From the NCBI GenBank assembly GCA_018970685.1, contig JAGWVX010000001.1:1-63074 (forward strand): a stretch of 63,074 nucleotides of DNA, read 5' to 3'. The notes below the pieces were generated by a model. The model was not told where the DNA came from, made no database searches, and saw only the letters and a program-made list of their open reading frames with translations. This document shows, one piece after another, positions 5,318 through 48,536 of the stretch (its first letter is position 1; each line of letters starts with the position of its first letter). A program made the position numbers and the translations under genes. Source of the DNA: Alphaproteobacteria bacterium. Lineage in GTDB: Bacteria; Pseudomonadota; Alphaproteobacteria; Micropepsales; Micropepsaceae.

Positions 5318-7021
5318 TCATGCAGAGGCCGCCGCGCTGTTCTCCGCAATGCGGCAGGTGCCGCTGCCATAGCCCCGGAACGGAAATTCCATCCAGCCCG
5401 GAAGCCAGTTTTCGACCTTCTCGCGGCCATTCGCGCCCGCAAGACAGTCGCGGATGATCTGCTTCTTGGTCTTGAGCTTCTCGCTCACATTGCCCTTGGC
5501 GACCGCCTCGCCCGCCACCTCGGCCAGCATGGCATTGACCGTGGCGCGGTCGCGCAAAAGCTCGAAGAAAGTCTCGTCCGCCTGCCATTGGCCGCGCGGA
5601 TCGGGTTTGAGCGCATGGCCTGCGGCTTCCACCATCGCGCTGCCGACCGCCAGCGTGTCGGCCATCGCAAAGGCGGCGATGCGTGCCACCTCGACATCGG
5701 GAAGCGCCAGAAGGCGGGCAAAGATGCGCGCGGTCTCGCCAGCATCGCCGGTGGGTAGCGTTGCGTCGTCGGTGCTTTCGCCCATGTCCAGCAAGCCCAT
5801 GACGGCTTCGCGCTCGGCGGCAAACGCCGCCTGCACCGGGCTGTGTTCGACACTGGCGGCGATGTCCTTGCCGCGTGCGCGCTGCGGCTCGGACTTGACT
5901 TGCCAATTGCCGGAGGACGCGAGCGCATGGGCGACCAGTGCCCGCCATGCGATGGACGGCGTAGCAATCAATGCAAGCCGGACGGCGGCGTGGCGGTGGA
6001 GTTCGAGATAATTCTCCATCGCCTGGGTCATGGCCGGACGAGTGGCGGGACCGGCTTTTGCGTGGTCGCCCGCTTGCCCTTTGGCCTCACTATTGCGCGC
6101 CTCCTTGCGCGTCAGCCAGCCTTCGTGAACCTCGACCTCGCCACGCTGGGAAAGCGTGATGAACACCTTGCCGCCCTTCTTCTTGGGCGTCTTTTCGTGC
6201 GCCCATTGGTCGAAGCGCTCGCCCGCCTCCAGCACTACGACCTCGGCCCATTTGGCGGCGAGAAGCGCTTCGCGCTTGGCCTCCACGGCCTTCCTCTGCA
6301 ATTGCCAGAACCGGTCCGTATCGGCGAAATAACGCTCCTCGCCGAACAGGTCGGTGACGATCTGGCCGTTGTAATCGGCCAGCGGAAACAGCGCCACCTT
6401 GGTGGCGATGGACTGCCCGCCAAACACCCACGCCTTCAACTGAGGGCCATAAGGCACGTTGGCCTCCTCGTCCTCGAACAGCTTGAGCCAGTCTTTCTGC
6501 TGGGCCTTGCTCGCCATCGTCAGATAGCGGACGGTCTCGGCGTCGATCTCCTCGGCGCGATAGGCGTCGCGGATTTTGGGCAACAGATTGCCGAGCGCCA
6601 GACGCTGCTTGACCATGATCTCGGTCAACCCGAACGTGGCGGCGATGGCCTCGACGCTGCGGCCCTCTTTGATCAACCGCGTGAAGGTCTCGTATTGGGT
6701 CATCTCGTCGGGATCGAGGCGGGCGAGATTTTCGATCAGCGAGGCTTCCAGCGCCGCCGCATCGTCGCCCGGCTCCATGACGGCGCAGGGAACGGGAGCG
6801 ATCTCGCCCTGTTCCTCGGCAATCGCCTTGGCGCTGAAATAGCGCCGCCGTCCGGCCACGATCTCATAGCCGTCCGCGTTGAGGCGCACCAGAAGCGGTT
6901 GGAGAATACCGCGCGCGCGGATGCTGGGCAGGATGTCGGAAATGTCCGGCGTCTGCTTCGAATGCCGCATGTTGACCGCGGCCGGATGCAGTTCGTTCAA
7001 GGGGATATGTCTCAGTTCCAT
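5318..7021 (-). CDS. ParB/RepB/Spo0J-like partition protein, long plasmid type
   Basis: 567-residue protein. The N-terminal ParB/sulfiredoxin-like domain (about 1-110) has IRARGILQPLLVR, the nucleotide-binding GRRRY and a LIENLARLDPDEMTQYE motif. A ParB HTH region (about 130-165, IAATFGLTEIMVKQRLALGNLLPKI) follows, then a long C-terminal part typical of ParB-like proteins of alphaproteobacterial ICEs and plasmids. The start at 7021 (MELRHIPLNELHPA) lies 8 bp after the stop of the upstream gene; the frame extends to 7063. No ParA partner is visible in the window. It may act in maintenance or regulation. Confidence 0.9.
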   Translation of the reverse strand: MELRHIPLNELHPAAVNMRHSKQTPDISDILPSIRARGILQPLLVRLNADGYEIVAGRRRYFSAKAIAEEQGEIAPVPCAVMEPGDDAAALEASLIENLARLDPDEMTQYETFTRLIKEGRSVEAIAATFGLTEIMVKQRLALGNLLPKIRDAYRAEEIDAETVRYLTMASKAQQKDWLKLFEDEEANVPYGPQLKAWVFGGQSIATKVALFPLADYNGQIVTDLFGEERYFADTDRFWQLQRKAVEAKREALLAAKWAEVVVLEAGERFDQWAHEKTPKKKGGKVFITLSQRGEVEVHEGWLTRKEARNSEAKGQAGDHAKAGPATRPAMTQAMENYLELHRHAAVRLALIATPSIAWRALVAHALASSGNWQVKSEPQRARGKDIAASVEHSPVQAAFAAEREAVMGLLDMGESTDDATLPTGDAGETARIFARLLALPDVEVARIAAFAMADTLAVGSAMVEAAGHALKPDPRGQWQADETFFELLRDRATVNAMLAEVAGEAVAKGNVSEKLKTKKQIIRDCLAGANGREKVENWLPGWMEFPFRGYGSGTCRIAENSAAASA

Positions 7022-7028
7022 GATGCTC

Positions 7029-7520
7029 TCACTCCGGGGTTGGGGTGGATTCGCGCGCCTCATCTAGCGCCGCTTCGGCCGGACCATCCGGCGGAAGATC
7101 GTTCGACCAATCGGCCAGCGCGAAGCGCGCGCCGGTCTCGTCGGTCTCTAGCTCGGGATCGTTGGGGTCTGCACCGTCCGTGTCGTAATCGCAGACATGG
7201 ACGCGGACTTTGCCGCCTTCGATGGCGACCTGCTGCACCACGCCGCCGGACACGGTGACGGTCACCAGCGGCGGCGTGCCGTGCTCGCAATAGGCGCTCG
7301 GCACCGGCAGCGACGACCGGAAATCCGTCCACGGATCGGCATCGCCTTCGGCAATCGCGTCCACGAAGGTGGCACCGCAATCGTCCAGCGATTTCCAGCA
7401 CGGATCGTCATTGGCCTGCGCGATAGCCTGCTCGCAGGCCTGTTCGATGGTATCGGCCTCGACCACCACGGTGTTGGCGTAATAGGCGGCATAGGTGCAT
7501 TGAACGGTCCAGCGTTTCAT
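7029..7520 (-). CDS. Conserved hypothetical protein of the parB-ardC operon
   Basis: 163 residues starting MKRWTVQCTYAAYYANTVVVEADTIEQACEQAI. It is acidic, with many Asp/Glu residues toward the C terminus and no signal peptide or membrane segment. I know similar proteins only as neighbours of parB-like and ardC genes on alphaproteobacterial mobile DNA and cannot assign a function. It is followed by parB after 8 bp. A GAGGAGCC Shine-Dalgarno precedes the ATG. Confidence 0.78.
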   Translation of the reverse strand: MKRWTVQCTYAAYYANTVVVEADTIEQACEQAIAQANDDPCWKSLDDCGATFVDAIAEGDADPWTDFRSSLPVPSAYCEHGTPPLVTVTVSGGVVQQVAIEGGKVRVHVCDYDTDGADPNDPELETDETGARFALADWSNDLPPDGPAEAALDEARESTPTPE

Positions 7521-13197: not shown

Positions 13198-13303
13198 AAG
13201 AAACATTCTTTGCAGGCTCTTGACCAGCGCATCGGTAAACGTTGTTGCCGAAGCGCAAAACAGCCGTTATCGCGGAGACAATCACTCGACGAGGACAATA
13301 ATC

Positions 13304-14341
13304 ATGAAAGCGCTTGTGTATCAGGGTCCGGGAAAGAAAGCACTCGAGAACCGGCCGACGCCCGAAATCGCCCAGGCAACCGACGCGATCGTCAGGGTTG
13401 TTAAAAATACGATCTGCGGAACCGATCTTCACATCCTCAAGGGAGACGTGCCGGCCTGCGCGCCTGGACGCATTCTCGGGCATGAGGGCGTCGGCATCGT
13501 TGAGAAAGTGGGTGCCGGCGTCACCGCGTTCCATCCAGGCGATCATGTGATCGTGTCGTGCATATCCTCGTGCGGCAAATGCGATTACTGCCGTCGAGGC
13601 ATGTACTCCCATTGCGTCAACGGCGGCTGGATTCTGGGCAACGTGATCGACGGCACGCAAGCCGAGTTCGTGCGAATTCCGTTTGCGGACACCAGCCTCT
13701 ATCACATTCCGGCCGGAGCCAACGAAGAAGCGCTGGTGATGTTGAGCGACATCCTGCCTACAGGCTTCGAATGCGGCGTACTCAACGGCAGGATCGAGCC
13801 TGGATCAGTTGTTGCCATCGTGGGTGCCGGTCCAGTTGGGCTCGCAGCGCTGCTGACGGCCCAGTTTTATTCGCCGGCCGAGATCATCATGATCGATCTT
13901 GACGAAAACCGCTTGGACGTCTCGAAGCAGTTTGGTGCAACGGTGACGATCGCGAATAACGACGGCAAGGCTGTCGAGAAGGTCATGGCCCTGACCGGCG
14001 GGCGTGGCGTCGACACCGCCATCGAGGCGGTAGGCGTGCCGGCGAGCTTCATCACATGCGAGGCCATCGTGACCCCCGGTGGGGTGATCGCCAACGTCGG
14101 CGTGCATGGCGCCAAGGTCGACTTGCACCTTGAACGCTTGTGGGACCGCAATATCGCAATCACCACTCGCTTGGTGGATACAGTCAGCACGCCGATGCTG
14201 CTCAAGACTGTGCAGTCACACAAGCTGGACCCCGCTCGTCTGATCACGCATCGCTTCCGGCTCGAAAACATCCTGGATGCCTACGAGACGTTCAGTCACG
14301 CGGCAAGCACCAATGCCCTCAAGGTGATTATCGAAGCGTGA
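13304..14341 (+). CDS. Zinc-dependent alcohol dehydrogenase
   Basis: 345 residues of the medium-chain dehydrogenase family. It has the catalytic zinc region ICGTDLHILKGD and GHEGVGIVEKVG, structural zinc cysteines CGKCDYCRRGMYSHC, and a Rossmann GAGPVGLAALLTAQ for NAD(P). The sequence ending ALKVIIEA is typical of the broad isopropanol/alcohol dehydrogenase-like subgroup. It would oxidise alcohols or reduce aldehydes, substrate unknown. A GAGGAC Shine-Dalgarno precedes 13304. It lies just before nsrR on the opposite strand; S-nitroso or formaldehyde metabolism is possible but not shown. Confidence 0.9.
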   Translation: MKALVYQGPGKKALENRPTPEIAQATDAIVRVVKNTICGTDLHILKGDVPACAPGRILGHEGVGIVEKVGAGVTAFHPGDHVIVSCISSCGKCDYCRRGMYSHCVNGGWILGNVIDGTQAEFVRIPFADTSLYHIPAGANEEALVMLSDILPTGFECGVLNGRIEPGSVVAIVGAGPVGLAALLTAQFYSPAEIIMIDLDENRLDVSKQFGATVTIANNDGKAVEKVMALTGGRGVDTAIEAVGVPASFITCEAIVTPGGVIANVGVHGAKVDLHLERLWDRNIAITTRLVDTVSTPMLLKTVQSHKLDPARLITHRFRLENILDAYETFSHAASTNALKVIIEA

Positions 14342-14385
14342 GCGACGGATACGGCGGGCAACCGTGGGTGCCGCCAGATCTATAT

Positions 14386-14856
14386 CTATGGCTGTGCGGA
14401 CGACAAAGGTGCGCGGTCACTCAACTCGATTCTGAGCTGCCGAGCGAGTGGGCGGCGTGGTCTCACAAGATCCTCGATCGTGAAACGATCGAGGACAGAC
14501 AGGAACGCGTTGGTGGCGTCGCGCAAAGCGCCCCGCAACACGCAGCTGTCTTCGATCCGGCAGAAGTGCCGTTCTCCCTGGAGGCAGCCCAGGACGCCCA
14601 ACTCCTCCTCCATATCGCGGACCACGGCACCGACATTGATTTGCGACGGCTTGCGTGCCAACCGGATTCCGCCGTTCTTGCCGCGGACGGTCTCGAGATA
14701 TCCCTTGCGTCCGAGTCCGTGGACGACTTTCATGACGTGGCCTTCCGAGATGTCGAAGTGCTTGACGATTTCTCCCACCGTCGAAAGCGCGTCGCCCTTG
14801 ATCCCGGCAAATATCAGGACGCGAAGGGCGTAGTCGGTATGCAGAGTTAGCCGCAT
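14386..14856 (-). CDS. nsrR: NsrR, nitric-oxide-sensing Rrf2-family repressor
   Basis: 156 residues. MRLTLHTDYALRVLIFAG and the winged HTH (VGEIVKHFDISEGHVMKVVHGLGRKGYLETVRGKNGGIRLAR) are diagnostic of NsrR. Three cysteines, Cys91, Cys99 and Cys105 in GCLQGERHFCRIEDSC, are the Fe-S cluster ligands that react with NO. The start at 14856 follows family length. It is divergent from nnrS with a 136-bp AT-rich intergenic region suited to autoregulation. It probably governs the NO genes in this window. Confidence 0.93.
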   Translation of the reverse strand: MRLTLHTDYALRVLIFAGIKGDALSTVGEIVKHFDISEGHVMKVVHGLGRKGYLETVRGKNGGIRLARKPSQINVGAVVRDMEEELGVLGCLQGERHFCRIEDSCVLRGALRDATNAFLSVLDRFTIEDLVRPRRPLARQLRIELSDRAPLSSAQP

Positions 14857-14992
14857 GGGATTTCCTTGCTGGTTGGACCGCGGGGGTGTCTTGCCGTACC
14901 GAAAGGTACATACTACGTATATGATATAAACGAAACATCCGGCATAGATGGTTGCAGAACCCTCATGCGGCCGGATGTCCGCGATCAGGCCC

Positions 14993-16201
14993 ATGACTGC
15001 AATTCCGCGTTATCGCCACCATGAAGGTCCGGTGCTCCTTTCGGCCGGTTTCCGGCCGTTCTTCCTCGCCGCCACGGTATGGGCCGCTGTTGCGGTCCCC
15101 ATTTGGCTCGTCGCCTATGCAACCGGCACAACGCCGCCAACCGCCCTGCCTCCCGTCATCTGGCACGCCCACGAGATGATCTACGGCTACGCCGCGGCCA
15201 GCGTGGCGGGGTTTCTCCTCACGGCCATCCCCAATTGGACCGGCCGGATGCCGTTGCAAGGCATGCCGTTGGCAACGCTGGTGGGCTTATGGTTTCTCGG
15301 ACGTATCGCCGTGCTTTTGTCTGCCGAAATCGGCGCAGTGGGCGCGGTGGTTGCGGACTTATCCTTTCCCGTAGTGTTTCTCGCCGTCGTCGCCCGAGAG
15401 ATTCTGGCCGGGCGCAATTGGCGCAACCTCCCGATGCTGGGCGCACTCTTGCTGCTTCTGACCGGCAATCTTCTGGTCCACCTAGATACGCTCGGCGTCA
15501 CCAGCACGGCCGAGCTCGGTAATCGGATTGGCATCGGGACGCTGTTGGTACTGATCGGCCTTGTGGGTGGACGCATTGTTCCGAGCTTCACGCGCAATTG
15601 GCTGGCAAAAAACCGACCGGACGCCGCTCTCCCCGCACCGGCGGGAATGCTGGATCTTGTGGCGCTGATCGCAACGGGCCTCGGCATTGCCGTCTGGGTA
15701 TTCGCGCCTGACACAGCCCCCGCACCATACGCCGAGTTGATCGCCGGCGTTGCCGTGGCGCTACGCCTGACACGCTGGGGCGGACCGAGTACAGTGCGGG
15801 AACCTTTACTGTTCATCCTTCACGTCGGTTACGGCTGGCTGGCGGCGGGCCTGCTGCTTTTGGGGACTGATGGGTTGTTCTATTTCCTGCCTCAGACGAC
15901 GGTGCTGCATGCGCTGACCGTGGGTGCGATCGGTACCATGACACTGGCTGTGATGACTCGCGCGACCCTGGGTCATACCGGAAGACCCTTGTCGGCCGGA
16001 CCGGTCACTAAGGCGATCTATGTCTTGGTGACGGCCGCGGCGATCCTGCGGCTCGCAGCCCCACTCGCAGGCGCTGAGATGATGCTGGTGCTGTTCTTTG
16101 CCGGCGTTGCCTGGTGCGCGGCATTCGGCCTATTCGCGGTTGTCTATGGCAGAGCGCTGGCGCGTCCCAGAGTCAGCAACGGAGGAGGAACACCGATCTG
16201 A
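14993..16201 (+). CDS. nnrS: NnrS family membrane protein
   Basis: 402 residues with about 12 hydrophobic segments. Typical NnrS motifs are present: LLSAGFRPFFLAA, IWHAHEMIYGYAAASVAGFLLTAIPNWTGR, GGRIVPSFTRNW, LHALTVGAIGTMTLAVMTRATLGHTGR. NnrS is a haem- and copper-containing inner-membrane protein that protects cells against NO and dinitrosyl-iron damage. The start at 14993 (MTAIPRYRHHEGP) is preferred to 14948 on family pattern. It is divergent from nsrR and likely NsrR-controlled. Confidence 0.92.
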   Translation: MTAIPRYRHHEGPVLLSAGFRPFFLAATVWAAVAVPIWLVAYATGTTPPTALPPVIWHAHEMIYGYAAASVAGFLLTAIPNWTGRMPLQGMPLATLVGLWFLGRIAVLLSAEIGAVGAVVADLSFPVVFLAVVAREILAGRNWRNLPMLGALLLLLTGNLLVHLDTLGVTSTAELGNRIGIGTLLVLIGLVGGRIVPSFTRNWLAKNRPDAALPAPAGMLDLVALIATGLGIAVWVFAPDTAPAPYAELIAGVAVALRLTRWGGPSTVREPLLFILHVGYGWLAAGLLLLGTDGLFYFLPQTTVLHALTVGAIGTMTLAVMTRATLGHTGRPLSAGPVTKAIYVLVTAAAILRLAAPLAGAEMMLVLFFAGVAWCAAFGLFAVVYGRALARPRVSNGGGTPI

Positions 16202-16234
16202 ACGGAGGGACGCGCCAGCTTGCTGCGCGATGGG

Positions 16235-16714
16235 TTACGCGGCTTGCTTGCGTCCGATGCGGACCTTCCAAACGTCCGGTCCGGATTCGACGTAGTCCCA
16301 ACTGAAACGCCCGGGATATTCGGCTTCGAACTGATAATAGAGCGGCTTGGGATCGTGGTCGTTGACGAGGAGGACTGCGTCGCCGGTCTCGAGCTTTCCG
16401 CAGGCTTCAAAGATCAACGCATGGCGCTGCGGCGGGGGCAGTGCGCGGACGTCGAGGTGCTGGGGTTCTGACATGAATGTCTCCTTCTTCTGGTTGAGAG
16501 GCCGAACGAGGTAGTGAAGTGCGCCATGCAGCCTGTCGGCTTCCTGCGTGCTGGCTTTGCGGACGACGGACCAGGCATCGGCGGCAATCCGGCAGGCAAG
16601 GTCGCCCTCGCCCCGATCGTGCAACGCCTTCAGCGCCAGGATCAGCAGACGGTTGAGGGAACGCAGACTGGCGGCCACCGCCTCAAGCTCCGCACGCATA
16701 TCTGTGTCGGTCAT
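16235..16714 (-). CDS. DUF2249 protein with N-terminal helical extension
   Basis: 159 residues. The last 79 (from an internal ATG at 16474, MSEPQHLDVRALPPPQRHALIF...YYQFEAEYPGRFSWDYVESGPDVWKVRIG) are a complete DUF2249 domain. The first 80 residues are mostly helical with no recognised domain. A strong AAGGAG stands 6 nt before the internal ATG, so a short DUF2249-only form may also be made. The outer ATG at 16714 overlaps the stop of the DUF59 gene (ATGA). Last gene of the five-gene NO-response operon. Biochemical role of DUF2249 is unknown. Confidence 0.85.
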   Translation of the reverse strand: MTDTDMRAELEAVAASLRSLNRLLILALKALHDRGEGDLACRIAADAWSVVRKASTQEADRLHGALHYLVRPLNQKKETFMSEPQHLDVRALPPPQRHALIFEACGKLETGDAVLLVNDHDPKPLYYQFEAEYPGRFSWDYVESGPDVWKVRIGRKQAA

Positions 16715-17031
16715 CGCCTTCTTCCAGGGGGTCCGGTTGCGGCGAAGCCAAAGTACGCCTTGGCTTCATCGCTCATCTTTTCGGGGCTCCACGGCGGGTC
16801 CCAAGTCATGGTGACTTCGGCCTTGTCCGCGATTGCGGCGGCGCACCGCTCGACGCCTTCGCGGATGAACTCCGTGGCGGGGCAGCCTTTGGTCGTCGTC
16901 GTGAGCAGGATGCGGACGAGGTCGCTATCGACATCAACGTCGTAGACGAGCCCAAGATCAACGATGTTATATCCGAGCTCAGGATCGATCACCTGCTTCA
17001 GAGCTTCTTTGATGTCGGTGGCGCTGGTCAT
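16711..17031 (-). CDS. Metal-sulfur cluster assembly factor (DUF59/MIP18 family)
   Basis: 106 residues, MTSATDIKEALKQVIDPELGYNIVDLGLVYDVDVD...MTLTTTKGCPATEF-type core here reading ILLTTTTKGCPATEFIREGVERC, then VTMTWDPPWSPEKMSDEAKAYFGF. This is the PaaD/SufT-like DUF59 fold, which helps load Fe-S clusters. A conserved Cys sits in KGCPATEF. It starts 4 bp inside the stop of the upstream DUF2249 gene. In an NsrR-linked operon it plausibly repairs or loads clusters damaged by NO. Confidence 0.9.
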   Translation of the reverse strand: MTSATDIKEALKQVIDPELGYNIVDLGLVYDVDVDSDLVRILLTTTTKGCPATEFIREGVERCAAAIADKAEVTMTWDPPWSPEKMSDEAKAYFGFAATGPPGRRR

Positions 17032-17273
17032 GGCTTCGTCTCCTTGGCGCGGCGGATGGTGGTCGTGAAATCTCCGTCGGAACCGCCGGTGACGTAGCGG
17101 TGGCCGCGCCGTTCGAGTTCGTGCTGCAGCAGCATCGGCTCGCGATCGGTGACGATCTCAAGAACGTCGCTGATACCAAGCTTTTCGACGGCTTCGAGCG
17201 CCCGGCGCATCGGCTCGGGCGGCGGAAGTTCGCGCAGATCAAGCCGGACCATGGAGGGCACCCGGCAGATCAT
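17028..17273 (-). CDS. DUF2249 protein, short form
   Basis: 81 residues: LDLRELPPPEPMRRALEAVEKL...VTDREPMLLQHELERRGHRYVTGGSDGDFTTTIRRA. This is the compact DUF2249 fold (related to the SirA/TusA-like two-layer fold). It overlaps both neighbours by 4 bp. Function is unknown; such genes typically cluster with nnrS, hemerythrin or NO reductase genes. Confidence 0.83.
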   Translation of the reverse strand: MICRVPSMVRLDLRELPPPEPMRRALEAVEKLGISDVLEIVTDREPMLLQHELERRGHRYVTGGSDGDFTTTIRRAKETKP

Positions 17274-17509
17274 GCGCTGGCCGGCATGAAGATGACCTCC
17301 CAGTCGCCGCCTCCGATCTCGCGCTCCGTGTGGCTGTATCCCTTCTCGGCCATCACCGCGAACAAGGGTACCGGCTTGAAGATGGCGAGCAACTTGAGCC
17401 CCTGGCCTGGCTTGAGCGCCACCACGGCCTTCATGATGTCGGAGAAAGGTTCGCCGCCCGCCTTCAACGTCTCACGAACATCGACGGTCACAAGGGAATT
17501 CTCAGTCAT
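17270..17509 (-). CDS. DUF2249 protein, second short form
   Basis: 79 residues, MTENSLVTVDVRETLKAGGEPFSDIMKAVVALKPGQGLKLLAIFKPVPLFAVMAEKGYSH...DWEVIFMP, a single DUF2249 domain. The start at 17509 overlaps the stop of the membrane gene (ATGA); the frame is open upstream but that part is antisense-like. Three different DUF2249 domains in one operon suggest they act together or sequentially. Confidence 0.85.
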   Translation of the reverse strand: MTENSLVTVDVRETLKAGGEPFSDIMKAVVALKPGQGLKLLAIFKPVPLFAVMAEKGYSHTEREIGGGDWEVIFMPASA

Positions 17510-18870
17510 CGAACAGTACCTCCGTGGGGGTATGGCAGAATGCCGAAATGGCGCGGCCCCATGGGCTTTTGCCGGCCCATAGCTGGAGCCTTCGGCCGAC
17601 GTACGAGCCAAAGGGCTCGTACGATCATCAGCGTGGCCGTGAGATGCGCCGCGATGGCCAGGCGCCATAACAACGTCCAACCAACCAGACCGGCCAGGAA
17701 ACCGAGAGCAACGGCGGCGAAGTAGAGCCAGAACCAGGGCCGGTCGCGGCGTTCGTCGACAAGATCTTGCACCCTGGGCACATCTTGTTTGCCGAGGACT
17801 TGGCCGTAGCGTTGCAGCCAGGTGAGGAAGGGGACGATCTTGTAGAGTTGGCTGAGCCCGAGGCCCGAAAGCCAACCGAAGATAAAGAGATAACCGACCG
17901 GTCCGATGAACGCGTCGTCTGCAGCCGCGATCGCCAGCGCGCCCATGAGACAGATCGCAAATGCAGCGAGCGGCGGCACGGCCATGACGGTATTGAGCTC
18001 CAGCTTGCGACGGCGGCGTGCGCGGTAGAGCCGCACCATATCGACGATGTAGAGCGCGATGCCCGCTGCGGCCGCGCCGAGCGCCGCTGTCTCACCCGGG
18101 ATGGCTACGCCTGCGGCGTTCCCAAGACCGATAAGCCACGCGGCAACCGTGCCTCCAGCGCTCAGCACGACGACGGCGGTTCCGATCGTTCCCCGCTCCT
18201 CCGGCGCCAGCGTGAACATGCTGAGCAGACGATAGCTGACACCCATGGCCGTCAGGGTGAACCAGCCCACGAGCCCCGCCAGAAGATGCAGATGGAAGCC
18301 GGTCGAGAGTGCCTCGGGCCATGGCACGAGGTCAGGGTAGGCAAACACCAGACCCATCACGATGCCCATCGCAGCCGTGATGAGCAGGAAGCCGAGTCCC
18401 ACGGCGACAAAGCATGCGGAGAATGGCAGTGGCCGCGTGCGCCACAGAACCCGGGCGAGCACGGCCGACGCCGTTACGAAACCGGCCAGCACCAGCGTGC
18501 CGCCGATCGGCAGACATGCCAGGCAGGTGATCGGCAGCACTCCGCCCATCGCGAGGAAACCCGCCTCCATGCCGGCGAGGCCGACAAGGATGGCCATCAG
18601 CGAGATCAATGCCGACCTGCCCGCCACGATCCTCTGCGCAGTGATGACGGGCAGGAACTGATGCAACGCTCCCAGCATCAGCACGCTGATCCAGCCGATG
18701 GTGAGAAGATGCACGGCAGCAAGCGTCGTCGGAGCAAAGAGCGACACTGCTGGATAGGCGATACCAAACGCCATTTCTGCCTGGGCGAGCACGAAGAAGG
18801 CGAGCGCCGTCCAGAAGTGAAGCATAGTCCAGCGGGAAACCACCGATCCGAACATGTGATGTTCTGTCAC
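17506..18870 (-). CDS. Polytopic membrane protein of the NO cluster (haem-copper-oxidase-like / NnrS-associated)
   Basis: 454 residues, about 12 membrane segments. Conserved-looking His residues sit in helices: LHFWTALAFFVLAQAEMAFG, AVHLLTIGWISVLMLGALHQFLPV, FHLHLLAGLVGWFTLTAMGVSYRLLSMF and QLYKIVPFLTWLQRYG. The pattern recalls subunit I of haem-copper oxidases/NO reductases stripped of catalytic parts, a type found beside nnrS and DUF2249 genes. First gene of the operon; a 23-bp NsrR-like site lies 18 bp before its ATG. Role in NO handling is inferred from context. Confidence 0.8.
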   Translation of the reverse strand: MTEHHMFGSVVSRWTMLHFWTALAFFVLAQAEMAFGIAYPAVSLFAPTTLAAVHLLTIGWISVLMLGALHQFLPVITAQRIVAGRSALISLMAILVGLAGMEAGFLAMGGVLPITCLACLPIGGTLVLAGFVTASAVLARVLWRTRPLPFSACFVAVGLGFLLITAAMGIVMGLVFAYPDLVPWPEALSTGFHLHLLAGLVGWFTLTAMGVSYRLLSMFTLAPEERGTIGTAVVVLSAGGTVAAWLIGLGNAAGVAIPGETAALGAAAAGIALYIVDMVRLYRARRRRKLELNTVMAVPPLAAFAICLMGALAIAAADDAFIGPVGYLFIFGWLSGLGLSQLYKIVPFLTWLQRYGQVLGKQDVPRVQDLVDERRDRPWFWLYFAAVALGFLAGLVGWTLLWRLAIAAHLTATLMIVRALWLVRRPKAPAMGRQKPMGPRHFGILPYPHGGTVR

Positions 18871-39641: not shown

Positions 39642-39932
39642 CTACCCCTTTGGCGTGAAATACACGCACCAGCCGTGCGGACTGATGCTGCCGTCTACGA
39701 TCGCGCAGGTGCCGTCCGCATTGGCCTTCGGGCCGGGCTTAAACCGCGCGCAGCCGGCGCATTTCTGTGCTCCGTTCGGCTTGTTCTGGTACATCGCCAC
39801 CTTCTGCGATGCCTTGGCCTCGGCAGGCTCCGATGCGAGGATCGCGCCGGCGGCGATGGCACCGATCGCCACCAATGCGCCCGTCTTGAACATGGAGCGG
39901 CGGGACAGATCGCAGTCGTCAGTCTTCTTCAT
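39642..39932 (-). CDS. High-potential iron-sulfur protein (HiPIP)
   Basis: 96 residues. A Tat signal SRRSMFKTGALVAIGAIAAGAIL is followed by the HiPIP core with four Cys: KCAGCARFKPGP, GTCAIVDG, GWCVYFTPKG. A soluble periplasmic electron carrier with a high-potential [4Fe-4S] cluster. The start at 39932 precedes the Tat motif. It stands first in the nos gene string, 28 bp before nosX, and may feed electrons to NosZ in place of a cytochrome or cupredoxin; that is inference. Confidence 0.85.
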   Translation of the reverse strand: MKKTDDCDLSRRSMFKTGALVAIGAIAAGAILASEPAEAKASQKVAMYQNKPNGAQKCAGCARFKPGPKANADGTCAIVDGSISPHGWCVYFTPKG

Positions 39933-40122
39933 CAATACCTCCGTCAATGGACGCCGCGAACGATCCGCGCACCAATGCAGCGTGTCCGCGCGCCTGCAAT
40001 AAACACTGATATCCGCATGTATCAGGTCGGGAATACGCGTCGTCTCCAGCGTTTCCCAGGCCGATCAAAGCAGTCGCAGCCGCTTGAATGCATCTGTCGA
40101 CCGAGTTCGACGTCCTTCCATA

Positions 40123-40925: not shown

Positions 40926-41930
40926 ATGATGACAGCAGCGACCCGCAGTCCAGAGCTGATCTGCCCCGCCGGAACGCCTGCGGGCCTGAGAACCGCCGTC
41001 GATGCGGGAGCACATGCGGTTTATTGCGGGTTTCGAGACGAGACGAATGCGCGCAACTTCCCAGGCCTCAACTTCGACCGGGCAGAGTTGCACGAAGGCA
41101 TCACCTACGCCCACGACCGCGGGGTAAAGGTGCTCGTAGCGCTCAACACGTTCATGCGGGCCGGCGCCACAGGAATATGGAAACGCGGAGTTGATGACGC
41201 CGTTTCCGCCGGTGCCGACGCCTTGATTCTCGCGGATGTCGCATTGATTGCCTATGCGCGCGAGGCATACCCGTGGCAACGGCTTCACTTGTCAGTACAG
41301 GCCGCCGCCGCGACGTCGGACGCAATCGCGTTCTATCGCGAAACATTCGGCATCGCGCGCGTCGTCCTGCCGCGCGTACTGACATTGGAGGAGATCGACC
41401 GGCTGACAAAGGCAACGGCACCGTGCGAGACAGAAGTTTTCGTCTTCGGCGGGTTGTGTGTGATGGCGGAAGGGCGTTGTTCGCTGTCGTCATACGCCAC
41501 TGGAAAGTCGCCCAATATGACCGGAGTCTGCTCGCCGCCAAGCCACGTGCAATATCGTGAAGACAAGGATACGCTGGTCGCTTCCCTCGGCGGCTTCACC
41601 ATCGAGCGCTTTGCGCGCGGCGAACCTGCGGGCTATCCGACGCTCTGCAAGGGGCGCTTTCGGGCCAACGGTACCGAATTTCATCTGTTTGAAGATCCCG
41701 TTAGCCTCAACGCCGTAGAACTTCTGCCGCGTCTGATCGAAGTCGGCGTCTCGGCCTTCAAGATCGAAGGTCGCCAGCGCGGACGTGCTTATGTCGCAAT
41801 GGTGGTGAGGGCGTTCCGGCGGGCCTTGGACTCCATCGCCCAAGGCCGCGAATTCGATGTAGGCGAGTTGCGGGCGCTCACCGAGGGCCAGAACCACACG
41901 ACTGGCGCTTACAAAAAGACTTGGCGATGA
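40926..41930 (+). CDS. ubiU: UbiU, U32-family protein for oxygen-independent ubiquinone hydroxylation
   Basis: 334 residues. LICPAGTPAGLRTAVDAGAHAVYCGFRDETNARNFPGLNF is the UbiU/U32 N terminus. Fe-S Cys occur in FGGLCVMAEGRCSLSSYATG, NMTGVCSPP and YPTLCKGRF. With UbiV it hydroxylates the quinone ring without O2, using prephenate. The ubiV ATG overlaps its TGA. Confidence 0.9.
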   Translation: MMTAATRSPELICPAGTPAGLRTAVDAGAHAVYCGFRDETNARNFPGLNFDRAELHEGITYAHDRGVKVLVALNTFMRAGATGIWKRGVDDAVSAGADALILADVALIAYAREAYPWQRLHLSVQAAAATSDAIAFYRETFGIARVVLPRVLTLEEIDRLTKATAPCETEVFVFGGLCVMAEGRCSLSSYATGKSPNMTGVCSPPSHVQYREDKDTLVASLGGFTIERFARGEPAGYPTLCKGRFRANGTEFHLFEDPVSLNAVELLPRLIEVGVSAFKIEGRQRGRAYVAMVVRAFRRALDSIAQGREFDVGELRALTEGQNHTTGAYKKTWR

Positions 41931-42835
41931 GCGAGGTCCTGCCGCCCTTATCGTTGACGCTTGGCCCCGTGCTGTTCAACTGGCCGACAGACCGCTGGAT
42001 CGATTTCTACGCCCGCATCGCCGACGAAGCATCGGTTGACCGCGTCTGCATCGGCGAAGTCGTGTGCTCGAAACGACAGCCCTTCCGCGATGATACCCTC
42101 GTCGACACGGTCGAGCGTCTCGAGCGAGGCGGCAAGGAGGTTGTCCATTCGACTTTGGCGCTACCCACTACCGCACGTGAAATCCGAGCCATCAGCGAGA
42201 TAATTGACGCAGGTTATGCAATAGAGGCCAACGACATTGCGACAATGAGATTGCTGGGCGGCCGTCCGCACGCTGTTGGCCCTTTGCTCAATATCTACAA
42301 CGAGGCGGCGTTGGCCCGGCACATTACACTCGGGGCTACGCGGATATGTCTACCTCCAGAGCTGCCGTTCGAGTCGATCCGCCTCATCGCCGCTGGAACC
42401 GCAGTGGTCGAAGTTTTCGCTTTCGGCCGCGCGCCGTTGGCTCTTTCAGCCCGTTGCTATCATGCACGCGCCCACGGGTTACCAAAAGATGCGTGCCAGT
42501 TCGTTTGCGAAAAAGATGCGGACGGCATGGATGTGCATACCATCGACGGAAAGCCGTTCCTTGCCGTCAACGGCATCCAGACGTTGGGTCACGTTGTAAC
42601 GGCCGCGACACACCAGATCTCCGAACTGCACGATGCCGGCGTGGTGGCCCTGCGCCTGTCGCCGCAAAGCTGCGACATGGTTCGCGTCGCGACGATTTTC
42701 CGCAACCTAGCGGATGCACACATCACCGCGGGCGAAGCGACGAAGCTGCTGTCGTCGCTTGCATTGCCCGGTCCACTTGCCGACGGTTACCTGCGCGGCG
42801 TGCCTGGCGCGAATCTCATTGACGAAGTCGACTGA
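41927..42835 (+). CDS. ubiV: UbiV, partner of UbiU
   Basis: 302 residues. LTLGPVLFNWPTDRWIDFYARIADEASVDRVCIGEVVCSKRQPF contains the cluster Cys pair. RCYHARAHGLPKDACQFVCEKDADG holds the other Cys of the [4Fe-4S] site. Forms a heterodimer with UbiU. The ATG at 41927 overlaps the ubiU stop (ATGA). UbiT, the lipid-binding third partner, is not in the window. Confidence 0.9.
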   Translation: MSEVLPPLSLTLGPVLFNWPTDRWIDFYARIADEASVDRVCIGEVVCSKRQPFRDDTLVDTVERLERGGKEVVHSTLALPTTAREIRAISEIIDAGYAIEANDIATMRLLGGRPHAVGPLLNIYNEAALARHITLGATRICLPPELPFESIRLIAAGTAVVEVFAFGRAPLALSARCYHARAHGLPKDACQFVCEKDADGMDVHTIDGKPFLAVNGIQTLGHVVTAATHQISELHDAGVVALRLSPQSCDMVRVATIFRNLADAHITAGEATKLLSSLALPGPLADGYLRGVPGANLIDEVD

Positions 42836-42928
42836 ACGTCAAAGGCGAGCAGCGCGTCATTTTACGCGTTTCGTCGCTGTGGCCGGCCCATCTCGCCTGG
42901 GTTTGCTGGTCCGGCATTAGCATCAACG

Positions 42929-43360
42929 TTATCGTTCCAGTTCCATCAGCAACGGTTTCAACAGCGGGGTGAGGCGCCGCAATTCTTCACGATGCGCGGT
43001 TGTCAGGCTGGCCAACAGCTTTTCGGCTTCACCAGTCAGGCCCAAGATCACTCGGCGCCCGTCAATAGGATCGGAGCGGCGTGCCAAAAGGTTCAGACGC
43101 TCAAGCCGGTCCACCAAGCCGACGGCGCTGTTGTGGCGCAGAAAAAGATATTCAGCAAGATCACCGACTGTGGTCGGCCCGTCAGACCCTTTGATTGCTA
43201 GAAGTACCTGATGCTGCTGCGGTGACAAACCGACGTCCAGTGCCTCGGCTTCGCTGAATGCCAGGAATTCCCGGAGCAATCGGCGGAATTCTGCCAACAG
43301 CCTGTAATCGCGCTGCGCCAGTTCCCGGCCCCTCGGCACGCGTTTCTCCCTCACTGTCAT
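42929..43360 (-). CDS. MarR-family regulator
   Basis: 143 residues. Winged HTH: LSPQQHQVLLAIKGSDGPTTVGDLAEYLFLRHNSAVGLVDRLERLNLLARRSDPIDGRRVILGLTGEAEKLL. No cysteine is present, so a thiol switch is unlikely. It is divergent from the ClC gene, and the double palindrome between them is a natural binding site. Confidence 0.9.
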   Translation of the reverse strand: MTVREKRVPRGRELAQRDYRLLAEFRRLLREFLAFSEAEALDVGLSPQQHQVLLAIKGSDGPTTVGDLAEYLFLRHNSAVGLVDRLERLNLLARRSDPIDGRRVILGLTGEAEKLLASLTTAHREELRRLTPLLKPLLMELER

Positions 43361-43375
43361 GCTTCGGTCTCCGTC

Positions 43376-43410
43376 ACGATATGTTGCATTATATCGTACA
43401 ACGATATAAT
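43376..43410. promoter_or_regulatory. Overlapping palindromes between marR and clC, probable MarR operator
   Basis: ACGATAT-N8-ATATCGT at 43376-43397 and ATTATATCGT-ACA-ACGATATAAT at 43388-43410 share an arm, so three ACGATAT half-sites stand in a row. It is centred in the marR-clC intergenic region (16-50 bp from marR, 38-72 bp from the ClC start). The palindromes are perfect and AT-rich in a GC-rich region. Confidence 0.75.
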
Positions 43411-43447
43411 AGCCTAGCTTCGCAGTCCCTCACCCTTTGTCGCACCC

Positions 43448-45250
43448 GTGACCAACTTGCCCATCTCCGCCGATCCTGAAGCCTCCGCGCCCTACATGGA
43501 TCGGCTTGGGGATTTCACAGCCGATTACCGTCTCCTGGCCCTCACCGCCATGGCGATGGCGACCGGAGCCATGGGCGCCAGCGCCGCCTGGGCGCTGTTG
43601 AAGCTGATCGCCGTTCTCACCAATCTCGCCTACTTCGGACGGTTGTCGGACACCACGGTCTATCTCTCGGGCCACCATCTCCAAGCCTGGACTATCACCG
43701 TTCCCGTAATCGGCAGCATCATCATCGGCCTGATGGCGCGCTATGGCTCCGAGAAAATCCGCGGGCATGGCATTCCCGAAGCGATCGAGGCCATCCTGAT
43801 CGGCGAAAGCCGCATCGAGCCCAAGGTTGCACTGTTGAAGCCGTTGTCATCGGCGTTGTCCATTGGCACCGGCGGCCCCTTCGGCGCGGAAGGCCCCATC
43901 ATCATGACCGGCGGCGCGCTCGGTTCGCTATTCGCACAGTTTTTCCATCTGACGTCCGCCGAACGAAAAACTCTCCTGGTCGCTGGCGCCGCCGCCGGCA
44001 TGACCGGCGTATTCGGCACACCAATCGCCGCGACGCTGCTGGCCGTCGAGTTGTTGCTGTTCGAATGGAAACCACGCAGCTTCATTCCGGTCGCGGTTGC
44101 CGCCATCGTGGCGCAAGTGCTGCGGCCCTGGCTCGTCGGGGTGGGGCCGCTGTTTCCATATCTGGGAAACCCCTTGATTCCGTGGTGGGGGCTCGCGCTT
44201 TGTGCCGGCGTCGGCATCGCCGCCGGCCTCCAGTCGGCGTTGATGACCATCTGCCTCTATGGGGTCGAGGATTTGTTCCGCAAACTGCCGATCCACTGGA
44301 TGTGGTGGCCGGCTATTGGCGGCTTGGTCGTCGGCATCGGCGGCTATTTCGATCCCGCGGTGCTTGGCGTCGGCTACGACAACATCCGCCATCTGCTGGA
44401 CGGCGATTTGCCTTTGCGCGCTGCCACCGCGCTGCTGGTCGGCAAGACCGGCGTATGGATCGCTGCCCTTGCCTCCGGCACTTCGGGCGGCATCCTTGCG
44501 CCGCTGCTGATCATGGGTGGCGCGCTTGGCACACTGGAGGCGTACTTCATGCCCTTCGGCGACATCGGCTTCTGGGCTCTGCTGAGTATGGCAGCGATCC
44601 TCGGCGGCACCATGCGCGCGCCGCTTACCAGTACGCTCTTCGCCGTGGAGTTGACGGGTAACATTCACGTATTGGCACCGCTACTGGTCGCTTCCGTGGC
44701 AGCCTTCGCTGTCACTGTCCTGTTGATGCGCCGCTCGATCCTTACCGAGCGCATTGCGCGCCGCGGTCAGCACATCATGCGCGAGTACAGCGTTGATCCG
44801 TTCCTCCAGCTCCGGGTCGCGGACATCATGACCAACCCGGTCGATACGCTCGAGGCTTCGCTCACCATCCCTGAGGCAATCGCATATTTCGCCAATACCG
44901 ACGGATCAAGTGGGCACAAATGCTATCCCGTAGTGGACGGCGAAAGACGTGTCGTCAGCGTTGTTTCCCGTTCCGATATTTTGCGCTGGACGCGGGAGGG
45001 TTGGCCTCAGAGCAGCACACTCGGCCGCATAGAAAGCCAGCGGGAATTGTTTGTCGCCTATTCCGACGATCTTGTGGGTGAGGTTGCGGATCGCATGGCG
45101 GTGGCCGACATCGGTCGGGTGCCAATCCTTGATCGCAATTCCGGCATGCTGGTAGGTTTGGTAGCTCGTCGCGATCTCCTGCGCGTTCGTACCAGGATCA
45201 TCCGCGAGGAGCAAACGCGCAAGCGGATGCTGCACCTACCGGGCTTTTGA
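43448..45250 (+). CDS. ClC-type chloride channel/antiporter with C-terminal CBS pair
   Basis: 600 residues. The ClC filter motifs are GHGIPEAIEAIL, GTGGPFGAEGPIIMTGG (gating Glu present), and SGGILAPLLIMGGALG. Ten or more membrane helices are followed by CBS domains (about 455-590: RVADIMTNPVDTLEASLTIPEAIAYF, YPVVDGERRVVSVVSRSDIL). Likely a Cl-/H+ exchanger regulated by nucleotides. The GTG start at 43448 is used. norB follows 52 bp later with no evident promoter, so the two are probably one operon. Confidence 0.93.
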   Translation: MTNLPISADPEASAPYMDRLGDFTADYRLLALTAMAMATGAMGASAAWALLKLIAVLTNLAYFGRLSDTTVYLSGHHLQAWTITVPVIGSIIIGLMARYGSEKIRGHGIPEAIEAILIGESRIEPKVALLKPLSSALSIGTGGPFGAEGPIIMTGGALGSLFAQFFHLTSAERKTLLVAGAAAGMTGVFGTPIAATLLAVELLLFEWKPRSFIPVAVAAIVAQVLRPWLVGVGPLFPYLGNPLIPWWGLALCAGVGIAAGLQSALMTICLYGVEDLFRKLPIHWMWWPAIGGLVVGIGGYFDPAVLGVGYDNIRHLLDGDLPLRAATALLVGKTGVWIAALASGTSGGILAPLLIMGGALGTLEAYFMPFGDIGFWALLSMAAILGGTMRAPLTSTLFAVELTGNIHVLAPLLVASVAAFAVTVLLMRRSILTERIARRGQHIMREYSVDPFLQLRVADIMTNPVDTLEASLTIPEAIAYFANTDGSSGHKCYPVVDGERRVVSVVSRSDILRWTREGWPQSSTLGRIESQRELFVAYSDDLVGEVADRMAVADIGRVPILDRNSGMLVGLVARRDLLRVRTRIIREEQTRKRMLHLPGF

Positions 45251-45302
45251 TCCTGCGCGCTGCGGAACGTCACGTTGTTGCCTTGGAAGTGGGAGGACTG
45301 AC

Positions 45303-47627
45303 ATGCCAACCGATCTCTCGAACATTTCGCCAGCACCTCACGACCCCGTGAGCAATGTCCTGAAGTGGATACTTCTGGCGGTGGCTGTCGGTTCGTTTGC
45401 CCTGCTCGCATGGGCGACGGTCGTCACCTACATGCTGGCACCGCCGCAACCCGACCAATTCGTCACCAAAAGCGGCACCGTCCTCATGACAGGGAACGAC
45501 ATCCTCGCCGGAAAGGCCGGATTCCAGAAAGCCGACCTGATGGATTACGGCAGTATTTACGGCATGGGCTCCTACTATGGAGAAGACTACACCGCCTCGG
45601 TGCTGGTACGGCTGGCGACGCTCACGCAGGACAGCCTTGCGCGTGCAACGACGGGAAAGCCTTTCGTACAACTTTCAGACTTGCAGCAAGCCGCTATCGA
45701 CATGGCGATGCGGTCGGAACTGCAACATGTCGACCTCACGAAATCTGATGTCGTCGTACCGAACGCGCTGGCCACTGCAATCACTGCCGAGCAGAAGGCG
45801 TTGACCAACTTTCTTAACACCGCCAATCCCCAGCTTGGATGGACACCTGCCTACAGCCTGAAAGGGTCAGACGCCCTCCATACGGCCGACTTTCTGATCT
45901 TCTCGTCACTGACCACGGTGGCGCGGCGCCCCGGCAGGACCTGGTCCTGGACGGAGAACTGGCCATACGAACCGCTCGTTGGGAATACGCCGACGACAAA
46001 CACCTTCCATTGGACTTGGATCAGTTTCTGCTTCACCTTTTTGATGTTCGGCGTGGTGCTGTTTATCTACGAGTTCTGGCTCGCCGACCCTGATACGGCG
46101 CCAATGGATCCGGTGCTTGCAACGTTTGAAACCCTGACGCCGAGCCAGCGGCGCATCGGTAAGTACTTCCTGGTCGTTGCCGTGATCCTGCTGGTGCAGA
46201 TCGCTGCGGGAATATTCATGGCGCATTCTTATTACGACCGTGCGAGCTTTTATGGCTTCGACATCAACCGTTGGCTTCCGTTCAATTTTTTGCGGGACGT
46301 TCATATCCAGTCGCCGATCGTCTGGATTGGTCTGTCGTGGATCGGCGCAGCCCTGTTCCTGGCCCCGGCCATCGCTGGAGGACACGAGGCGCGTGGACAA
46401 GGCGCGCTCGTCGATCTGCTGTTCTGGGTGACGCTGATCGTCGTCGCCGGTGCGTTCGCCGGTGATTACCTCGGCATCATGGGGGTGATCAACCGCGACT
46501 GGTTCTGGTTCGGCAACCAGGGCCTCTCCTACATTCAGCTTGGACGCTTCTGGCAGATCGGGTTCTTCGTCGGCCTCGTTGTCTGGAGTGTTTTGGTTTT
46601 CCGCGCAATGTGGCCGTCGCGCGAAGCCCTGGTGATCGCGACGCGGCAGTTCTGGTCGGGACGCGTCCGCCTGGAGAACCTCATCTGGGCTGCAACCATC
46701 AATATCGCTATCCTCTACGCCTTCGGAATGATCCCGCTGACCGGGATCGAGAAGTCTTTCACCATCACCGATTTCTGGCGCTGGTGGGTGGTCCATCTCT
46801 GGGTCGAACAATCGTTCGAGTTCTTCGCGGCGGCGATGAGCGCGTATCTCCTGATGGCGGTCGGGCTCGTCTCACGCAAGCTCGCCGAGCGAGCCGTGTA
46901 CTTCGAGCTGATCCTGATCTTCCTCGGCGGTGTCATCGGAACCGGCCATCACCTTTACTGGGCCGGCGGTCCGAGCATGTGGGTGCCCATGGGCAGCATG
47001 TTCTCGTTCATCGAAGTGCTGCCGCTGGTGCTCCTCATCATCGAGGCGATCAACCAGCACCGGCTGATCCGGCGTCAGCAAGCCTTCAAGTACGGCGTCG
47101 CCTACACTTATATTATCGGGGCAGCATTTTGGAACTTTGTCGGCGCCGGCGTGTTTGGCGGCGGCACGCTCAACGCTCCGTTGGTGAACTATTACGAGCA
47201 CGGCACGTTCCTCACCCTCAACCACGCCCACACCGCGTTGTTCGGTGCCTTCGGACTTTTGGCGATCGGCCTCATCTATTTTTGCCTGCGCTACGCGGCA
47301 GGCGATCGCATGCCATTCAGCGAGCGCAACGGAATCATCGCGTTCTGGCTCTACAATAGCGGTCTTGTGCTTTGGATTCTGCTGAACTTCTTCCCGATCG
47401 GTTGGCCGCAGCTCGACGCCGTATTCGAACACGGACTTGCCTATGCGCGCAGCGCGGCTTTCTACAACACGACGTTGCTCTGGCAATGGATGAGGCTGCC
47501 GGGTGATGTCGTCTTCGCCCTCGGAGCCCTGCTGATGGCATGGGACTTCCTGATCAAGCTTGGGCCGTTGTTGCCGCAATTCCTGCGTATGACAAGACGC
47601 GAACCTATGCCAAAGGCAGCAGAATGA
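45303..47627 (+). CDS. norB: Quinol-dependent nitric oxide reductase (qNor)
   Basis: 774 residues, single-subunit type: no CxxCH haem c motif, a long N-terminal periplasmic domain and about 14 membrane segments. Key parts include TFHWTWISFCFTFLMF, VVHLWVEQSFEFFAAAMSAYLLM, GGVIGTGHHLYWAGGPSMWVPMGSMFSFIEVLPL, and GGGTLNAPLVNYYEHGTFLTLNHAHTALFGAFG with His ligands. Converts 2 NO to N2O using ubiquinol. A GGGAGGA Shine-Dalgarno precedes 45303. It lies downstream of the MarR-controlled ClC gene. Confidence 0.95.
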   Translation: MPTDLSNISPAPHDPVSNVLKWILLAVAVGSFALLAWATVVTYMLAPPQPDQFVTKSGTVLMTGNDILAGKAGFQKADLMDYGSIYGMGSYYGEDYTASVLVRLATLTQDSLARATTGKPFVQLSDLQQAAIDMAMRSELQHVDLTKSDVVVPNALATAITAEQKALTNFLNTANPQLGWTPAYSLKGSDALHTADFLIFSSLTTVARRPGRTWSWTENWPYEPLVGNTPTTNTFHWTWISFCFTFLMFGVVLFIYEFWLADPDTAPMDPVLATFETLTPSQRRIGKYFLVVAVILLVQIAAGIFMAHSYYDRASFYGFDINRWLPFNFLRDVHIQSPIVWIGLSWIGAALFLAPAIAGGHEARGQGALVDLLFWVTLIVVAGAFAGDYLGIMGVINRDWFWFGNQGLSYIQLGRFWQIGFFVGLVVWSVLVFRAMWPSREALVIATRQFWSGRVRLENLIWAATINIAILYAFGMIPLTGIEKSFTITDFWRWWVVHLWVEQSFEFFAAAMSAYLLMAVGLVSRKLAERAVYFELILIFLGGVIGTGHHLYWAGGPSMWVPMGSMFSFIEVLPLVLLIIEAINQHRLIRRQQAFKYGVAYTYIIGAAFWNFVGAGVFGGGTLNAPLVNYYEHGTFLTLNHAHTALFGAFGLLAIGLIYFCLRYAAGDRMPFSERNGIIAFWLYNSGLVLWILLNFFPIGWPQLDAVFEHGLAYARSAAFYNTTLLWQWMRLPGDVVFALGALLMAWDFLIKLGPLLPQFLRMTRREPMPKAAE

Positions 47628-47682
47628 GTGCCAGTTTGTGCCCTCTGACCGTCTTGGGCCGGCGACACAACGATCCAGCCTG

Positions 47683-47835
47683 GCCGACGTAAAGACGGAC
47701 ACGGCGGGCAACGGCACGGTGACGGGCGTGCGTCTCTATCAACTCATCCGCCAGTAAGGCGCCATTACCGACCAAACTTTCGAAATCGAATTTCTCGATC
47801 CGGGCGTGCGGGCCTATTCCTTCACGTTCGGCTGA
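47683..47835 (+). pseudogene. C-terminal remnant of a thioredoxin-like (DipZ-type) protein
   Basis: The frame reads ADVKTDTAGNGTVTGVRLYQ LIRQ, then a TAA at 47755, then GAITDQTFEIEFLDPGVRAYSFTFG and TGA. The TFEIEFLDPGVxAYxFTFG ending is typical of thioredoxin/DipZ cytochrome-biogenesis-like proteins. The internal stop and missing catalytic part show that it is a fossil. It overlaps the end of the minus-strand amidotransferase by 14 bp. Confidence 0.6.
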
Positions 47836-48536
47836 GACCCACCAGGAATTCGGAAAAGAGCGCCGCTCCCGCCTGCGATGCCGCTTGTGTGTAGCGGCAC
47901 GCATCCTCGCGCAGCGCACCGGCTGAAAGCCCCGCCACACCGGCAATCTCGCACGCATGGCCGAGCAGCCATAGTTCGAAATTCCCGCCAAGGGCCTCGG
48001 GATGGAATTGTATCCCCAAGACATCCGGCCCGTAGGAAAATGCCTGGTTCGGCGTCAGCGCCGTCGATGCCAGCCTTGTCGTACCGTGGGGCAAGTCGAA
48101 GGTGTCGCCGTGCCAGTGCAATACGGGCTTGTCCTCAAGATGCCGCAGCGGACCGTTTTGTCCTTCCTGTGTTAACGAAACCGGGGCCCATCCGATCTCC
48201 TTCGCAGGACCGGGATAGACGCGCGCACCTAACACCCGCGCCATCAATTGCGCGCCCAGGCAAATGCCGGCGGTCGGGCGCCCAGCGGCGAGCCGCGCTT
48301 CGAGCACGCGCATCGTGTCGAGCAGGAAAGGATATTTGTCTTCCTCGTAAGCGCCGATCGGCGCGCCCAGCACGATCAACACATCGGCGTTGCCCGCGCC
48401 GGATTGCGCAATCGAATCGACGCCCGCCTGGCAATAGCCGACGGCGTATCCGGCACCCTCAAGGACCGGCCCGAATGCGCCGAGGTCCTCGAAATGCACA
48501 TGGCGAATGGCAAGTGCGGATTTCAAGAAGTGAATC
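47822..48536 (-). CDS. Glutamine amidotransferase class I (GMP synthase-like)
   Basis: 238 residues. Catalytic Cys in TAGICLGAQLMARVLGA, His-Glu in GIQFHPEALG, and oxyanion region VLIVLGAPIGAYEED. Single-domain GATase1 such as those acting on gamma-glutamyl compounds or unknown acceptors. The TTG start at 48536 (KSALAIRHVHFEDLG) is supported by GGGAGA 8 nt upstream; the first ATG would cut the conserved N terminus. It stands alone before the cobalamin island. Confidence 0.85.

Follow-up and report, generated by a model that had tools for sequence, protein, structure and literature searches.

Among described systems, the closest to the locus presented here are the local repressors of the MarR family, winged-helix proteins encoded divergently from a transporter or enzyme gene, with a palindromic operator in the intergenic region. 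To our knowledge, little has been reported on the regulators that act on bacterial ClC genes. The ClC reference is the E. coli Cl-/H+ exchanger ClcA, in which Ser107, Glu148, Glu203 and Tyr445 are key residues, and ClC proteins of enteric bacteria have a role in acid resistance (PMC10394335). Quinol-type NO reductases (qNORs) are represented by NorB of Geobacillus, Neisseria and Alcaligenes, and for control by NsrR or FNR/NnrR the point of comparison is an Rrf2 gene or an FNR-type box, present beside many relatives of the norB gene studied here. Genes of all three kinds stand side by side in the stretch of 63,074 nucleotides analysed (the window). The literature searched, with subscription journals mostly outside its coverage, held no report of a MarR-ClC pair or of a conserved regulator-operator-ClC module, and nothing relevant on clcA together with norB or on the operator half-sites.

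In regard to the layout of the locus, marR lies on the minus strand (42929..43360) and encodes a 143-aa MarR-family regulator. Divergent from it, clC (43448..45250, plus strand) encodes a 600-aa ClC-family anion transporter and is followed on the same strand by norB (45303..47627), which encodes a qNOR of 774 aa. The clC gene starts with GTG at 43448, and its relatives start at the same place (MTNLPISADPEASAPY in the window, MPNNSISAEPEASSPH in locus L145). The gap of 52 bp between clC and norB (45251..45302) carries an SD-like GGAGG in front of norB and neither a promoter-like nor a terminator-like site; a scan of 42800-47900 with the sigma-70 consensus only returned no promoter of that type. 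Open reading frames, Pfam matches and the promoter scan agree in this respect with a previous sequence-only reading of the region, which had given these gene positions, the GTG start and the gap without a visible promoter. Since marR converges with ubiV, and norB with minus-strand cobalamin genes, the pair clC-norB stands as an isolated unit of two genes on the plus strand. Gene order was read from the assembled contig alone, the source genome being one metagenome-assembled genome (MAG) of about 80% completeness, and a rearrangement private to this MAG could account for the clC-norB junction.

The regulator is a member of the MarR family, its winged-helix domain scoring above the curated cut-offs (PF12802 53.8 bits, cut-off 27; PF01047 31.8 bits, cut-off 24.6), and is predicted to work like a standard MarR local repressor, differing from such repressors generally in that its target is a ClC gene. 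The nearest NCBIfam model, HpaR, is matched far below its cut-off (36 versus 121 bits). Orthologues of marR adjoin clC in many genomes and are 50-76% identical. There is no cysteine in the whole 143-aa sequence, which argues against a simple thiol switch; an OhrR-like switch is ruled out by the absence of the reactive N-terminal cysteine. Likewise, the sequence holds no metal motif suggesting direct NO sensing and lends such sensing no support; the signal may be related to acid, an anion or a metabolite.

Three half-sites are present between marR and clC (ACGATAT at 43376, ATATCGT at 43391 and ACGATAT at 43401), and both inverted repeats that had been described as two overlapping perfect palindromes do exist, but only the inner one is conserved. 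The outer half-site (43376..43382) is missing from orthologous regions, which rules out two overlapping functional operators. The conserved repeat is ATATCGT-3-ACGATAT (core ATATCGT-ACA-ACGATAT, 43391-43407), with the extended form TTATATCGTACAACGATATAA at 43389..43409. Allowing up to two mismatches, the operator TTATATCGTNNNACGATATAA was found upstream of 29 of the 33 clC genes and 31 of the 40 marR genes, divergent pairs entering both counts, while its expectation in shuffled sequence is about 0; a palindromic operator candidate beside the regulator's own gene is what is expected of the MarR family. The perfect form ATATCGT-3-ACGATAT occurs once in the window genome and in 6/100 genomes surveyed (window genome included), all six with a marR orthologue, and a 19-base operator form was found in the window genome only among 385 sampled alphaproteobacteria. 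In the 50 genomes with the norB clade of the window, 13 of 17 perfect sites lie at or beside marR or clC, and almost all perfect operators are in genomes with an orthologue of the window MarR. A perfect operator is kept at clC even where marR sits on another contig (G020, G024). Furthermore, the operator spans a TTGCAT-15-TATAAT element (43384..43410, plus strand), a putative clC promoter of short spacing, and such a position fits a repressor. The conserved unit is thus the divergent marR-clC pair with one operator, and norB looks like a later addition to it.

The label of antiporter given earlier to the ClC protein did not withstand the comparison of key residues. Family membership is clear (Voltage_CLC, PF00654, 260 bits, plus two CBS domains), and the gate Glu148 was kept in the 13 subfamily members compared, a feature shared with E. 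coli ClcA along with the ClC fold family. However, of the four residues of the ClcA-type exchanger only this one is retained: Ser107 is replaced by His in all 13 members, Glu203 by Leu or Val (13/13), and the Tyr445 segment is without Tyr. A further difference from ClcA is the presence of the two CBS domains. ClcB-like proteins (PRK01862) are the best NCBIfam match and have a similar length and a CBS region, yet the window protein scores 196.6 bits where the cut-off is 482. We infer a channel-like anion transporter rather than an exchanger, although the residues are compatible both with a passive channel and with an exchanger using another proton path or another anion, and the loss of Glu203 would be compatible with proton coupling by another path.

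As for the third gene, the quinol-type NO reductase identity proposed from the sequence was supported. NorB comprises a COX1 domain (PF00115) and the fused N-terminal cytochrome-c-like domain (PF22085), and aligns with solved qNORs (3ayf and 8bgw chains) along its full length at about 1e-125. Its FeB histidines and glutamate are retained, as are the quinol-site His, Phe and Asp. It differs from known qNORs in having Asp in place of Glu332, and in the position of its gene behind clC. An NO dismutase is ruled out by the retained metal and quinol residues.

The order of these genes is another matter. Across about 20 norB loci of the genus and 80 named ones of close norB relatives, norB was found directly behind clC in the window genome only, an outcome that the previous reading had itself named as refuting it, so that neither a conserved pair, as had been proposed, nor a conserved clC-norB operon can be upheld, and conservation cannot support cotranscription. 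It should be considered that, at other loci, genes were called with a simple ORF picker plus BLAST rather than taken from curated annotation. In the nearest norB relative (G048, 82%), norB lies behind an Rrf2/NsrR-like gene and the marR-clC pair is on another contig, and most marR-clC pairs stand among unrelated housekeeping genes. The proposal of one MarR-controlled unit is partly supported: the divergent marR-clC pair and its operator are conserved, and norB would be controlled from it by read-through.

According to the model that we favor, and consider rather probable, a channel-like ClC is under the local control of a MarR repressor, and norB has been captured into the ClC transcription unit. 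A MarR dimer bound to TTATATCGTNNNACGATATAA would cover both of the divergent promoters and silence marR as well as clC, with autoregulation as a consequence, until a signal releases MarR and lifts the repression. In this lineage, the qNOR gene would have landed 52 bp behind clC and is probably transcribed from the promoter under MarR control; since the operator overlapping the clC promoter region is conserved and a separate promoter is not visible in front of norB, read-through into norB is the simplest interpretation. The unit would then increase NO removal and anion permeability at the same time, an advantage in places where NO arises from acid and nitrite. Alternatively, a rearrangement could have placed norB behind clC without functional consequence, with a cryptic promoter inside the last part of clC driving norB, and with NO control exerted by an NsrR-like Rrf2 protein or by Crp/Fnr instead of MarR. 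The restriction of the adjacency to the window genome among the loci surveyed would be accounted for in this way, an FNR-type box or an Rrf2 neighbour is frequent among relatives of norB, and genes of both regulator types, Rrf2 and Crp/Fnr, are present in the window. On the other hand, neither an Rrf2 gene nor an FNR-type box directly precedes the window norB (TTGAT-N4-ATCAA is absent from the 400 bp before it at up to one mismatch), there is no promoter-like site near it, and in L053 norB stands behind the same operator independently, in the order marR, perfect operator, nnrS, norB. The last arrangement provides an independent case of norB placed behind this operator, and we regard such a neutral juxtaposition as rather unlikely.

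Related to NO control, the suggestion that MarR acts in place of NsrR found no support, since the genome contains an NsrR-like Rrf2 gene by nnrS and a second norB with its own Rrf2 gene. The former (14386..14994, minus strand, Rrf2 family, NsrR/RirA-like) adjoins nnrS within the window and is a rival source of NO control. The second norB copy (G000:C318, L021, 837-3111) is 76% identical to the first and cut by the contig end, and the gene directly behind it is NsrR- or RirA-like. In another genome, a norB of 75% identity (G125:C1:2833480-2835768) carries one in-frame TGA.

Although the direct pair is not conserved, the proposed connection of ClC and MarR with NO genes survives in a looser form, recurring in other lineages and exceeding chance. 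Besides L053, the order norB, nnrS, DUF488, clC, operator, marR is found in L051/G022; in L047, marR lies 0.5 kb behind norB and a perfect operator precedes osmC; and in both G024 and G020, Rrf2 and nnrS lie close to clC and its operator, only the former having a norB remnant there as well. In Acidocella (L040), a perfect operator before a decayed clC remnant (6856-7206) is located about 3 kb before norB, with an imperfect copy 176 bp before norB, and the search of that genome gave no marR orthologue. In L221 (6797-10430), a marR-clC pair neighbours genes for an ANTAR response regulator, an NMT1-like (NasS-like) nitrate-sensor-like protein and a NarK-like transporter, these genes being preceded by an operator with two mismatches. 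Under a rough model counting separate contigs as unlinked, 3 genomes, of about 27 that have marR as well as norB (window excluded), carry the two within 5 kb, against 0.07 expected (p about 5e-5). Furthermore, marR is present in 25/48 genomes with the window norB clade and in 8/385 sampled alphaproteobacteria class-wide, and within the genus norB occurs in 9 of the 13 genomes with marR and in 4 of the 47 others.

Such arrangements, together with the linkage and the co-occurrence, could mean that MarR takes part in a response to nitrogen oxides (NO, nitrite or nitrate), with clC, nnrS and norB as its regulon, repeatedly brought together. However, the placement of most marR-clC pairs among housekeeping genes does not speak for it, some genomes with marR lack norB of the window clade, and the regulator has no cysteine or metal motif for direct NO sensing. 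The correlation of marR with norB is modest on an rpoB tree (likelihood ratio 10.3, p 0.036; 36 genus members, without the window genome, whose rpoB was not found), and shared ancestry and habitat therefore explain part of the co-occurrence. Taken as a whole, we find this explanation unlikely.

It is also possible, and to us a more serious candidate though still short of an even chance, that MarR answers general acid, anion or electrophile stress and that NO genes are incidental members of its regulon. The role of enteric ClC proteins in acid resistance would agree with this, and perfect operators precede genes of other kinds: osmC in L212 (5669-7189), in the row norB, AhpD-like gene, marR, operator, osmC; a truncated zinc-ADH-like ORF in L286; and a gene of the Na/H-exchanger family in L289 (1501-2864), where the only MarR relative of the genome is a distant one. 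Each of these sites was, however, found only once. In a more speculative and doubtful extension, the cysteine-free MarR clade would answer an acid- or nitrogen-oxide-derived signal and control a channel-type ClC together with repeatedly captured norB and nnrS; if so, anion conductance and NO removal would be switched together in acid-tolerant denitrifiers. What is unusual about the locus is the apparent capture of norB by the MarR-clC unit, as well as the conserved regulator-operator-ClC module itself. A conserved regulator and operator joined to a ClC subfamily with altered proton-path residues offer a direct route to the signal and to a test of channel versus exchanger, and a concrete hypothesis for how denitrifiers cope with acid and nitrite comes from the repeated proximity to NO genes.

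Finally, the window also holds nosRZDFYL (nosDFYL assigned by eye from sequence), apbE, fdxA, ubiU, ubiV, nnrS and the Rrf2 and Crp/Fnr genes mentioned above. Based on the nos genes, a copper nitrite reductase gene present in the genome and the norB copies, the organism, an uncultured alphaproteobacterium, is likely a denitrifier. Genes for a zinc-ADH, Rrf2, NnrS, a DUF59 protein and a second NnrS-like membrane protein without a Pfam match form a probable NO-response cluster at 13220-18870, 26 kb from norB. Within the nos/apbE/fdxA/ubiUV group, a HiPIP with a TAT signal (39642-39947), resembling the iron oxidase Iro at 54.9 bits, below the cut-off, is a possible electron carrier. The ubiU-ubiV genes of oxygen-independent ubiquinone synthesis (40926-42835) adjoin marR-clC-norB, a neighbourhood that fits a quinol-fed NO reductase under anoxia.
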